Below, piece after piece: positions 1,745 to 7,097 of a stretch of DNA of 35,153 bases. The translations under genes and the position numbers were made by a program. How positions within the stretch are numbered: the stretch's first letter is position 1; each line of letters begins with the position of its first letter. The stretch spans positions 1 through 35,153 of the IMG/VR virus record IMGVR_UViG_3300027608_001389; one strand, written 5' to 3'. The notes below the pieces were generated by a model. It was given only the letters and a program-made list of their open reading frames with translations. It did no database searches and had not been told where the DNA came from. Source of the stretch: a virus.

Positions 1745-1773
1745 TTGACATATAAGTAGATTGACTGTATAAT
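1745..1773 (+). promoter_or_regulatory. Exact consensus sigma70 promoter
   Basis: TTGACA at 1745-1750, a 17-nt spacer and TATAAT at 1768-1773 match the bacterial housekeeping consensus in all 12 positions. The expected start is near 1780, giving a leader of about 26 nt to ATG 1806. It should be used by unmodified host RNA polymerase, hence early. Confidence 0.85.
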
Positions 1774-1805: not shown

Positions 1806-2981
1806 ATGGCAACTAAACTCAAAAAAGAATCTATCGCACTTCGTGAAAAAGCCAAACGTGACTACAGTCCAAGCTGGGTTGGTTGCGAAGCATGGGACGA
1901 GAATCAGTTTCTGCGTTACTTCCATAGTGCTATGAAGTACTATCGTATGGAAGCCAGCGGTAAAGAACTCAAAGTTAAAGTTATTGATTGGATGGGTAAA
2001 AATGGTTACGACAAAACGACTATCCAAAGTTTTAAGAAAACCAAAGACAATCGTTGTTCGTTGACTGTTGGCTCAATTGCTGCCTGCTTGCTCAAAGGTA
2101 TGCAAAGCACACGTCCAGACTTTAACAACGGTCGTGACACTGCCACTTGGTTGGGTGCAGAAATTGCCAAGATTATTGATGAAGGCAAAAACGACATTGA
2201 TGAAGACGCAGTTGTAGTCGATGACAAGCCTGCAGTTTATACCCCTAGCATTCAAGAACGTACTCGCGATGCAGCCTTGTTAATGACTGAAGAGATCGAA
2301 GACGCTTACGAGAGCTATCAAGCTGATCCAGAAAACTTTGACCCGAAAGCATTTAAGATGCTTAACTTGCTCAAAGGTAAAGGCGCAAAGGCAGCTCACG
2401 CACGTATCATTCGTGACTTCTATGCAGGCGATCTTGCAGAGCTAAATGAGCTAGCTAGCGGACAAGGTGATGAACAGTTGAAAGAAGGTTACAAGCACCG
2501 TACTCGTAAGCAGATCAAGAACTTTATTGCATTTTTACAAGAGATTGAATCAGCCTGTAACATGCTCATGCAAGAAGCCAAAGTTAACAAAAAGCCTCGC
2601 AAAACTAAAGCAGTTAGCAAAGACAAACTTGTTGCTAAACTTAAATTTAAGAAAACTGACGAGCCCCTAAAGTTGGTTAGTGTTAACCCTGCAGACATTA
2701 TTGGTGCTCAGGAACTGTGGGTGTTTAACAGTAAAACACGCAAGTTGGGCAAGTATGTTGCTGAGGAGTTTAAAGAACTTGGCGTTAAAGGCACTACAAT
2801 TACGGGTTTTAGTGAAATGAAATCTGTACAAAAGACTCTACGCAAGCCTGTAGAACAGTTGGCGGCCTTTAAAGCGGCTGGTAAAGTAGTGCTACGCAAG
2901 TTCTTAGAAGATATTAACGCCGTAGATACTAAAATGAACGGTCGTTTAAACGAAGAGACTCTTCTTCTTAAAGTAGCATAA
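1806..2981 (+). CDS. Conserved phage protein of unknown function, 391 aa
   Basis: Start chosen at the ATG with AAAGGAG 8 nt upstream, directly behind a perfect sigma70 promoter and a terminator, so it is an isolated, probably strong early unit. The protein is soluble and Lys-rich. Residues 1-60 hold a compact N-terminal block (SWVGCEAWDENQFLRYFHSA). An acidic linker lies near 130-150, the middle is helical, and a Lys-rich linker spans about 255-280. The C-terminal domain (about 290-391) contains WVFNSKTRKLG, VKGTTITGF and NGRLNEETLLLKV. Similar proteins are, as I recall, common conserved hypotheticals in T4-like phages of aquatic bacteria. The function is unknown; nucleic-acid binding is possible from the basic composition but unproven. 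Confidence 0.8.
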   Translation: MATKLKKESIALREKAKRDYSPSWVGCEAWDENQFLRYFHSAMKYYRMEASGKELKVKVIDWMGKNGYDKTTIQSFKKTKDNRCSLTVGSIAACLLKGMQSTRPDFNNGRDTATWLGAEIAKIIDEGKNDIDEDAVVVDDKPAVYTPSIQERTRDAALLMTEEIEDAYESYQADPENFDPKAFKMLNLLKGKGAKAAHARIIRDFYAGDLAELNELASGQGDEQLKEGYKHRTRKQIKNFIAFLQEIESACNMLMQEAKVNKKPRKTKAVSKDKLVAKLKFKKTDEPLKLVSVNPADIIGAQELWVFNSKTRKLGKYVAEEFKELGVKGTTITGFSEMKSVQKTLRKPVEQLAAFKAAGKVVLRKFLEDINAVDTKMNGRLNEETLLLKVA

Positions 2982-2990
2982 AACAATTAG

Positions 2991-3030
2991 GGCCGTGGAT
3001 AAATACTCAAAAGAGAGTATTTCCATGGCC
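2991..3030 (+). promoter_or_regulatory. Late promoter motif within a start-codon-sequestering hairpin
   Basis: GATAAATA at 2998-3005 matches the late motif. It is embedded in a long inverted repeat: GGCCGTGG (2991-2998) pairs with CCATGGCC (3023-3030, one G-U) and AAATACTC (3001-3008) pairs with GAGTATTT (3015-3022), with a 6-nt loop and a 2-nt bulge. The ATG at 3025-3027 and the purine-rich ribosome site at 3011-3017 lie inside the hairpin. A late transcript starting about six bases after the motif would lack the 5' arms. Confidence 0.65.
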
Positions 3031-4365
3031 TTAAACATTTTCGAACCGTTAAAATTTAGTACTCAAGGAATTAACGACCTTGCTACACAAGAAACACTCG
3101 TTATAACCAACGGTAAAATTACTGTTGATATAGTCGAACCTAAACGATCATTAACCTTTGCCGGCGGCAATTTTACCGATGTTAATAGCAAGGGTATTAA
3201 ATGGACCGACGGGCGCAAGAGTAAAACACTAGCATACAAAGATTCTACATTATGGACTGATCTAAGTGTTAATCTTGCAGAAGAATTAAGTTATCAAATT
3301 AACGACACTTTGGTGTTGTCTTTTACTGAATTAGGTTCTACTGTTACTAAAAGTAATTTAAAAACAGTAGGTATTCTTAAATCTTTAATTGTAGCAGGCA
3401 CTGCCGAGTTTGGCGGGTTTGCCTATGCTGTTAGCGATCTTAATAGATTTGGTATTAACACAGACTCCCCGGCGGCGGCTCTAGGTATTAACGAAAACGG
3501 TGTCGGTATTGTTATCGGCAGCACAAAAGCCAGTACAGCAGTTATTGGTACAAACACAAACGATAATTTAGAAATTGTCACCGATAATACCGCAAGAATA
3601 ACAATTTCAAACAGTGGCGATGTTAGAGTGCATGGAAAAATCTATGCCGACGAGGTCATTACACATAGATCTAGTCCGGTAGTGTTTAAAGCTTCTGATA
3701 CAGACAGTATCTACGGAAAAGGCATGGTTTGGTCAGCACCGTTTGAACCTAATAAACAATTCATATATTATGCCGACCCTGACAGAATTTGGTCAACAGA
3801 GATAATTGATCTAGCACCAGAAAAATATTTCTCAATTGAAAACAAAATGGTTCTAAGTAAAACTATGCTAGGATCAACTGTTGTAGAAAGTAGTCTTAAA
3901 AAATTAGGTGTGCTGACTGAATTACAAGTAGCAGGCGATGCCGCGGTAACTAGAACGCTGTCTACTAGTAAAATTGAAATTGGAAAATTCTCCGTCAACG
4001 AAAATAATCTAACAGTCACTGACGAATTTAATGTTATCAGAGGTAACACTAGTGAGTTAAAATTAGGCGCTGACATTACTATTGGTACTTCCGATAATAA
4101 TAACAGAACTGTATCTGTATATGGTAAATTAGCAGTTGGTGTTGCAAATCCCAAAGAAGATGTAAGTTTAACAGTAGCAGGATCAGTAAGTTTTGATAAC
4201 AAAAAATTTACCACAGGCGATAGTAAACCTACACTGGGAAATTACAACAAAGGCGATATTGTGTGGAACACCGATCCAAAAGCAACCGACTACATTGGAT
4301 GGGTATGTGTAACTGCAGGTAGTCCAGGTGCGTGGTTACCATTCGGTTCTATTGCAAGACAATAA
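3025..4365 (+). CDS. Fibre-like structural protein, 446 aa
   Basis: Start chosen at ATG 3025, behind AAGAGAG. An upstream in-frame GTG at 2995 is rejected because it precedes the late promoter motif. The sequence has the Gly/Thr/Asn-rich beta pattern of phage fibre or appendage proteins. It contains an internal duplication of about 75 residues: nt 3190-3420 (KGIKW...LSFTELGSTV...LIVAGTAEF) and nt 3718-3950 (KGMVW...LSKTMLGSTV...LQVAGDAAV). The C-terminal part (GDIVWNTDP, IGWVCVTAGSPGAWLPFG) is the kind of ending often seen on phage tail fibres and surface-binding proteins. A virion role is inferred from these features and the late promoter; the exact position in the particle is unknown. Confidence 0.7.
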   Translation: MALNIFEPLKFSTQGINDLATQETLVITNGKITVDIVEPKRSLTFAGGNFTDVNSKGIKWTDGRKSKTLAYKDSTLWTDLSVNLAEELSYQINDTLVLSFTELGSTVTKSNLKTVGILKSLIVAGTAEFGGFAYAVSDLNRFGINTDSPAAALGINENGVGIVIGSTKASTAVIGTNTNDNLEIVTDNTARITISNSGDVRVHGKIYADEVITHRSSPVVFKASDTDSIYGKGMVWSAPFEPNKQFIYYADPDRIWSTEIIDLAPEKYFSIENKMVLSKTMLGSTVVESSLKKLGVLTELQVAGDAAVTRTLSTSKIEIGKFSVNENNLTVTDEFNVIRGNTSELKLGADITIGTSDNNNRTVSVYGKLAVGVANPKEDVSLTVAGSVSFDNKKFTTGDSKPTLGNYNKGDIVWNTDPKATDYIGWVCVTAGSPGAWLPFGSIARQ

Positions 4366-4950
4366 GTGAATATCTGGGTTATAGGTAACGGCGAAAGTCG
4401 TAGAACTTTCGCCCTTAATCAAATAAAAGATCTAACAATAGGCTGCAACGCAGTTCACAGAGATTTTAACTGTGATAGATTTGTAGCTGTAGATCGACGC
4501 ATGGTTGAAGAAATACTTAGAAATGATGCTGTGACTAATAGTGCAGTCTATACTAGGCAAGACTGGTATAAGGAATGGTGTAGTGATCGAGTGCGGTCTT
4601 TACCAGATTTACCATTTGAGGGGACTGATAAAGTAGACAAACCGTTTCATTGGAACAGTGGTCCTTATGCAGTATTGTTAGCATCGATGATGTTGCCACA
4701 ACAAATACATTTGTTAGGTTTTGATCTTTGGAGTGTAGACGGGTTAGTTAATAATTTTTACAAAGGTACATCTAACTATTCTAAAACAGATTCCAAAAAA
4801 GTCATGCCAGACTTTTGGATTTACCAACTGGCAAAAGTTTTTAATTATTATAGTCAAATAGAGTTTATACAACATCAACAACAAGATTGGCGAATTCCAG
4901 ACAGCTGGTTGGCTATCAAGAACTTGACAATTGTCTACGATATAGTATAA
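4366..4950 (+). CDS. Putative sialyltransferase-like (GT42/DUF115-type fold) protein, 194 aa
   Basis: The frame begins with GTG immediately after the previous TAA, so it may be translated by re-initiation. Visible landmarks are VIGNGESRR near the N-terminus, IGCNAVHRDF, VAVDRRM, HWNSGPYAVLLASM and LLGFDLW. Their order matches the Rossmann-like fold of CstI/CstII sialyltransferases (AGNGPS near the N-terminus, a CN pair, SGVY, then a hydrophobic strand with GxD). Family GT42 enzymes move a CMP-activated nonulosonic acid to a lipooligosaccharide. A nearby kdsA makes an ulosonate, which is also CMP-activated, so a Kdo-type donor is an attractive inference. The similarity is motif-level only, and MptE/DUF115-like proteins share the fold. 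Confidence 0.5.
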   Translation: MNIWVIGNGESRRTFALNQIKDLTIGCNAVHRDFNCDRFVAVDRRMVEEILRNDAVTNSAVYTRQDWYKEWCSDRVRSLPDLPFEGTDKVDKPFHWNSGPYAVLLASMMLPQQIHLLGFDLWSVDGLVNNFYKGTSNYSKTDSKKVMPDFWIYQLAKVFNYYSQIEFIQHQQQDWRIPDSWLAIKNLTIVYDIV

Positions 4951-4988
4951 TTACTGTTAGCGGTCTTTTAACGTCATTCACCCCGCTT

Positions 4989-4996
4989 TATAAATT
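4989..4996 (+). promoter_or_regulatory. Candidate late promoter motif TATAAATT
   Basis: TATAAATT lies 42 nt before ATG 5039 and is identical to the motif at 942-949. It would serve the QueD-like/kdsA/glycosyltransferase run. Just upstream, AGCGG (4959-4963) and CCGCT (4983-4987) could form a weak hairpin. Confidence 0.35.
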
Positions 4997-5038
4997 CTGC
5001 ATGTCGTCAAACTTGCTACCTTACAAAGGAGACTAGAG

Positions 5039-7051: not shown

Positions 7052-7097
7052 TTGACAAAAAATGGACATGGTGTTATAATATACTATGTCCATTTTT
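7052..7097 (+). promoter_or_regulatory. Consensus sigma70 promoter embedded in a 12-bp perfect inverted repeat
   Basis: TTGACA (7052-7057), a 17-nt spacer and TATAAT (7075-7080) are an exact consensus promoter. A perfect 12-bp inverted repeat, AAAAATGGACAT (7058-7069) and ATGTCCATTTTT (7086-7097), brackets the -10 box with a 16-nt centre. The repeat could be an operator or the terminator of the upstream gene (stem followed by Ts). The expected start near 7087 leaves a leader of about 25 nt with no clear Shine-Dalgarno before ATG 7112. Confidence 0.8.

Follow-up and report, generated by a model that had tools for sequence, protein, structure and literature searches.

Introduction

A hairpin mechanism for the timing of phage gene expression has been described for e, soc, 49, I-TevI, I-TevII, I-TevIII, segB and mobE of Aeh1 (PMC3014915, PMC2988022), and a 100-fold repression has been reported for the synthesis of T4 lysozyme (PMC3014915). 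In the literature on such switches only cases from the T4 group were found. In T4, a small number of genes are known to use it, many of which are toxic or mobile. Here, we analyzed a window of 35,153 bases, which represents the whole record of an uncultured virus. An earlier note on this DNA had suggested that a late promoter nested in a hairpin controls a fibre-like gene, and the precedents it named in T4 (e, soc and I-TevI) are correct according to the literature. The hairpin was confirmed as an observation far beyond chance. Its T4-like reading is supported, with mechanism and purpose inferred, and we consider it very probable that this locus carries a cis-acting switch for timing like that of T4 gene e or I-TevI.

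Results

A hairpin over the start of the late gene

Two stacked stems had been noted before, 2991-2998 (GGCCGTGG) with 3023-3030 (CCATGGCC) including one G-U pair, and 3001-3008 (AAATACTC) with 3015-3022 (GAGTATTT). Both pairs of arms are present exactly as noted, and the 3' arm indeed contains the ATG (3025) together with part of the ribosome site (Table 1). In the fold of minimum energy the outer stem extends further than noted, comprising 13 pairs (2987-2999/3022-3034), followed by a 2-nt bulge (3000-3001) and 7 inner pairs (3002-3008/3015-3021) closing the loop. With an energy of -28.1 kcal/mol compared to -10.3 +/- 2.7 for shuffled sequences (z about -6.5; 0 of 200 shuffles as low), the hairpin 2987-3034 is the strongest structure among the approximately 30 gene starts of the window. 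Rfam holds no family for the hairpin element, and no near match was found among named phage records.

Table 1. Positions of the early and late genes, their promoters and the hairpin elements in the window
Feature	Position	Strand	Basis and remarks
Sigma70-type early promoter of the upstream gene, TTGACA-17-TATAAT	1745..1773	+	All 12 consensus positions match
Upstream (early) gene phrog_11903, 391 aa, function unknown	1806..2981	+	PHROG match, E 2.5e-64
Outer stem, 5' arm	2987..2999	+	Fold, covariation; the noted 2991-2998 is its core
Late promoter motif GATAAATA in the 5' arm	2998..3005	+	Most enriched upstream octamer
Inner stem, 5' arm AATACTC	3002..3008	+	Fold, covariation; built from promoter letters and those just after
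Hairpin loop, with the predicted late transcription start (about 3011) inside	3009..3014	+	T4 geometry; start predicted
Shine-Dalgarno-like GAGAG, partly within the inner stem	3013..3017	+	Sequence, pairing probabilities
3' arm shared by both stems, overlapping the start codon and part of the ribosome site	3015..3034	+	Fold, pairing probabilities
Late gene, fibre-like virion structural protein, 446 aa, ATG 3025	3025..4365	+	PHROG matches, 20 relatives

The two transcripts proposed for comparison in the earlier note behave as it had expected. In RNA folded from 1780 the hairpin forms, with pair probabilities of 0.999 for 2998-3023 and for 3005-3018, and all three bases of the AUG are predicted to be fully paired (probability 1.0). 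RNA folded from 3011 is essentially unstructured (-1.1 kcal/mol). The predicted cost of opening the ribosome site is 26.4 kcal/mol in the read-through RNA versus 5.8 kcal/mol in the RNA from 3011. In the long transcript the ribosome site and/or the start codon would be helix-bound, and the late promoter is placed within the 5' strand, such that RNA from the predicted late start would be devoid of that strand.

Promoters, genes and phage context

The early promoter said to read into the late gene is a perfect TTGACA-17-TATAAT element with a predicted start at 1780. It is codirectional with the late gene, and no terminator-like site was found on the + strand between this promoter and the hairpin. 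An early promoter with 10-12 of 12 matches has been kept before phrog_11903 in 44 of 60 clusters of relatives, and a late motif at this position was found in none of the 60. The relatives of phrog_11903 reside in uncultured jumbo phages with contigs of up to 383 kb, and homologues with 26-33% identity are encoded by PA5oct, a cultured jumbo phage, and by phiM12 and Cr30, which are T4-like.

The octamer GATAAATA, previously regarded as a late motif, proved to be a genuine promoter motif, being the top-enriched octamer upstream of open reading frames in related loci (64 occurrences versus 2.1 expected). It occurs 21-26 times per record of 345-383 kb, mostly on one strand, and its reversed form 0-7 times. 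A gp55-like late sigma factor was detected in all four large relatives tested (E 3e-7 to 2e-6); the evidence for a T4-type late sigma comes from these relatives, the window itself being a 35-kb fragment.

The fibre-like character of the late product, also part of the earlier note, is borne out by matches to the virion structural protein family phrog_6002 (E 2e-19) and the short tail fibre family phrog_2617 (E 1e-9). Among the downstream proteins tested in relatives nearly all match these same virion-structural families (phrog_6002 and others), although with differing N-termini. The in-frame GTG at 2995, which is preferred as start by the mechanical list of open reading frames, was ruled out by the starts of the relatives. 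Because the fibre orthologues begin with MALN(I/V)(F/Y)EPLKF and their promoter-to-ATG distance varies between 26 and 28 nt, the ATG at 3025 is the start codon.

Conservation of the hairpin among relatives

The stretch after phrog_11903 was taken from 127 loci and clustered at 90%, yielding 63 clusters. A late motif plus an open reading frame is present in 53 of them and missing in 10, several of which have a queD-type gene next. Forty of the 53 clusters are terminator-free between the two genes, and all 40 possess a hairpin across the predicted late start, with z < -3 in 38 cases and z of -2.8 and -2.9 in the remaining two. Other late promoters of the same phages (n = 88) have a median z of -0.3, and 5 of 88 show z < -3 (Fisher 1.4e-24 versus 38/40, bearing in mind that the clusters are kin, so that simple p-values presuppose more independent observations than there are). 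Moreover, the hairpin is not general to tandem genes, because just 3 of 53 controls with a codirectional frame ending shortly upstream have z < -3. At the terminator-free junctions, the median opening cost of the ribosome site is 18.0 kcal/mol for read-through RNA versus 1.1 kcal/mol for late RNA, and the ribosome site or the AUG is paired across the start point in 24 of the 24 junctions that have a ribosome site.

These controls bear on the idea that the hairpin is a by-product, in which case a shared constraint would make the late promoter AAATACTC complementary to the ribosome site GAGAGTATTT. The inner stem is made of promoter letters in the window's group, as this idea would have it, but such folding is lacking at other late promoters that carry this motif (median z -0.3), the outer stems covary, and in several relatives the promoter is found in the loop and arms of an unrelated design are used. 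Being already contradicted by the controls, such an origin is hardly conceivable.

That every late promoter might carry such a hairpin was tested as well and rejected, since most of the approximately 100 GATAAATA sites fold poorly. A few late promoters elsewhere in these genomes (L179, L191, L198, L104 and L194) likewise possess strong hairpins (z < -3), four of which surround the start codon. The gene order, with a structural gene behind the phrog_11903 homologue, is shared by PA5oct, the closest cultured relative identified, but no hairpin is present there (z -0.8 to -1.0); hence, the device is not universal.

Replacement and covariation of the arms

When read by eye, the arms fall into at least 8 unrelated designs between groups, and complementarity is kept throughout. 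The window's group carries GGGCC(A/G)T(A/G)G, and other groups use TTGCCATAG, CATGGATAAA, CTCTCGTGCTA, GTCTCT, CTGCCATAGTC, TAGTTTGAT or TCTAAGGGTTGA, each with its own complement. The median duplex value was -22.5 for own arms versus -13.0 for arms swapped between phages (p 2e-12), and the difference is also found within each of the two promoter spacing classes (p 6e-8 and 2e-4). Arm changes without compensation in relatives had been named in the earlier note as an observation that would refute its proposal. This check supported the proposal: among the 10 sequences of the window's group, 96.3% of the pair cells are kept. In this group 5 pairs have changed on both sides, none of 500 shuffles attains the covariation score (0/500), and pairing falls to 35-48% when the arms are slid by 1-3 columns. 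Where the 5' arm faces the invariant U and G of the start codon, it varies only between letters able to pair (A/G and C/U).

It might also be assumed that the inverted repeat works as DNA, i.e. as a cruciform or a regulator site at the late promoter, and in many relatives the repeat is centred near the late start. However, the arm sequences are unrelated between groups, and 83 of the 88 other late promoters are without hairpin. Furthermore, in a strict within-helix count G-U pairs exceeded A-C mismatches (19 versus 6; swapped arms 322 versus 329), an excess pointing to coding-strand RNA rather than DNA; a loose G-U versus A-C count gave no signal. A role as DNA element is thus regarded as very unlikely.

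Terminators and displaced genes as natural experiments

The hairpin depends on an uninterrupted junction between early and late gene. An intrinsic terminator is situated between the early gene and the late promoter in 13 clusters (L087 was classed here by eye), and 3 of these 13 show z < -3 (Fisher 8e-7 versus the terminator-free clusters), whereby z overstates hairpin strength in the terminator-bearing clusters because its window can include the terminator stem. On the phrog_11903 tree, supported branches record at least 8 changes of terminator state. In none of 7 independent pairs on this tree did the terminator-bearing side have the stronger hairpin, a tree-corrected result of modest strength with median sign-test p values of 0.03 for accessibility and 0.06 for z.

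A second natural experiment is offered by L003 and L009/L010, in which a convergent gene of approximately 1.4 kb separates the early gene from the orthologue of the window's fibre gene. The hairpin is absent at these displaced orthologues (z +1.1 and -1.4), whereas those still adjoining the early gene have z values of -5.3 to -6.1. The inserted convergent gene in L028/L003 and L009/L010 is itself fibre-like, apparently with divergent late promoters.

The same data are relevant for the possibility that the hairpin serves the 3' end of the early message, for example as exonuclease barrier, processing site or weak terminator of phrog_11903, and overlaps the fibre gene start incidentally. The structure is very stable and in most relatives is at most a few tens of nucleotides away from the early stop codon, which would fit such a function. 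On the other hand, it is not followed by a T run, and after displacement of the fibre gene by the convergent gene it is missing at both places. A 3' barrier would also need neither arms that straddle the predicted late start nor coverage of ribosome site or AUG, as seen in 24/24 cases with a ribosome site. Finally, in L226 and L234 the first 70 nt past phrog_11903 contain perfect 11-bp arms, ATAGTAATGTA/TACATTACTAT, which flank an intrinsic terminator, so that terminator and start-codon sequestration are nested. We consider a 3' element unlikely.

A class of late promoters close to the start codon

Measured from the G of GATAAATA, the distance of the ATG has a bimodal distribution among 141 unique sites, with 49 at 12-16 nt, 1 at 17-23 nt, 84 at 24-36 nt and 7 beyond. 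In the long-spacing class 56 of 60 control sites show a Shine-Dalgarno-like motif. Of the 40 clusters without a terminator at the phrog_11903 junction, 16 fall into the short-spacing class, in which the AUG is mostly found in the hairpin loop and forms exactly the triloop in L094, L208 and L215. This placement of the AUG in a loop instead of a stem counts against the timing switch.

In the T4 late geometry the motif is centred near -10 and transcription starts about 6 nt after TATAAATA. With this geometry, transcripts of the short class (about one third of late promoters; L102-L201 among the loci) would start at or within approximately 3 nt of the AUG, and judged from spacing alone these messages would apparently be leaderless. 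If true, one and the same AUG would be silent in the hairpin loop of the long RNA and active as 5'-terminal AUG of the late RNA. There is about an even chance that in this large clade of jumbo phages the junction between early gene and exchangeable fibre cassette is silenced by interchangeable insulators, namely sequestering hairpins that arose independently, or terminators, and that one class couples this to leaderless late messages.

Other features of the window

A further perfect sigma70 promoter (TTGACA at 7052, TATAAT at 7075) precedes a UvdE-like gene, and its -10 box is surrounded by a perfect 12-bp inverted repeat, AAAAATGGACAT/ATGTCCATTTTT (7058-7069/7086-7097), which might represent either an operator or an overlapping terminator. 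A structured-looking leader, GCGG..CCCGC..AAACTCTGCATGTC..AAGGAG, is located at 4950-5038 before a queD-like gene and represents a riboswitch-like candidate; it is conserved downstream of phrog_11903 in L029, L032, L037, L066, L078 and L100, and gave no Rfam match even at E 10. The listed start of a phoH-like gene (33734, - strand) falls within a predicted structure of -22.6 kcal/mol without a late motif, and the true start of this gene may be further in.

Discussion

The following sequence of events can be envisaged for the locus in the window. Early in infection, the host sigma70 polymerase would start at about 1780 and transcribe phrog_11903, and without a terminator in its path transcription would continue into the fibre gene. 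The long RNA is expected to fold as the 2987-3034 hairpin, burying the start codon along with part of the ribosome site, such that no fibre protein would be made. Later, the phage late sigma factor of the gp55 type would initiate from GATAAATA, and the late RNA, probably starting in the loop near 3011 and devoid of the whole 5' arm, could not fold and would be translated.

In the comparison a single junction can be traced across dozens of phages and carries its own control, the terminator being present or absent and the early gene adjacent or displaced. It represents strong evolutionary evidence that leakage of the fibre gene into early RNA costs the phage, and the hairpin signature might be used to find such switches in uncultured phages. 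The mechanism is already known from T4. New are the fibre-type target, the occurrence in many uncultured jumbo phages of one large clade, the recurrent substitution of the arms, the exchange of hairpins and terminators, and versions that are apparently leaderless.

In architecture the locus resembles T4 gene e, where promoter letters likewise lie in the 5' arm and the ribosome site in the 3' arm, with early genes reading in. Using the same script, the same accessibility contrast was obtained for T4 e, with opening costs of 15.3-15.7 kcal/mol in read-through versus 0.8-4.5 kcal/mol in late RNA. However, the target here is a fibre-type virion gene and not lysozyme, it has one promoter compared to two for T4 e, its AUG is fully paired, and it occurs in other, uncultured jumbo phages with unrelated sequence. 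Similarly to I-TevI, I-TevII, I-TevIII, segB and Aeh1 mobE, where a late (or middle) promoter gives rise to late RNA without the 5' strand of the ribosome-site hairpin (PMC2988022), the late RNA predicted here would lose that strand; those genes encode homing endonucleases, whereas here a virion structural gene is concerned and the junction is kept over many phages while its arms are replaced. T4 soc and gene 49 are comparable in being late genes that are carried on early/middle polycistronic RNA and have structured ribosome sites (PMC3014915, PMC2988022). They represent individual cases for which an exchange of hairpins and terminators was not found reported in the literature examined, whereas at the fibre junction of the jumbo phages this exchange is seen.
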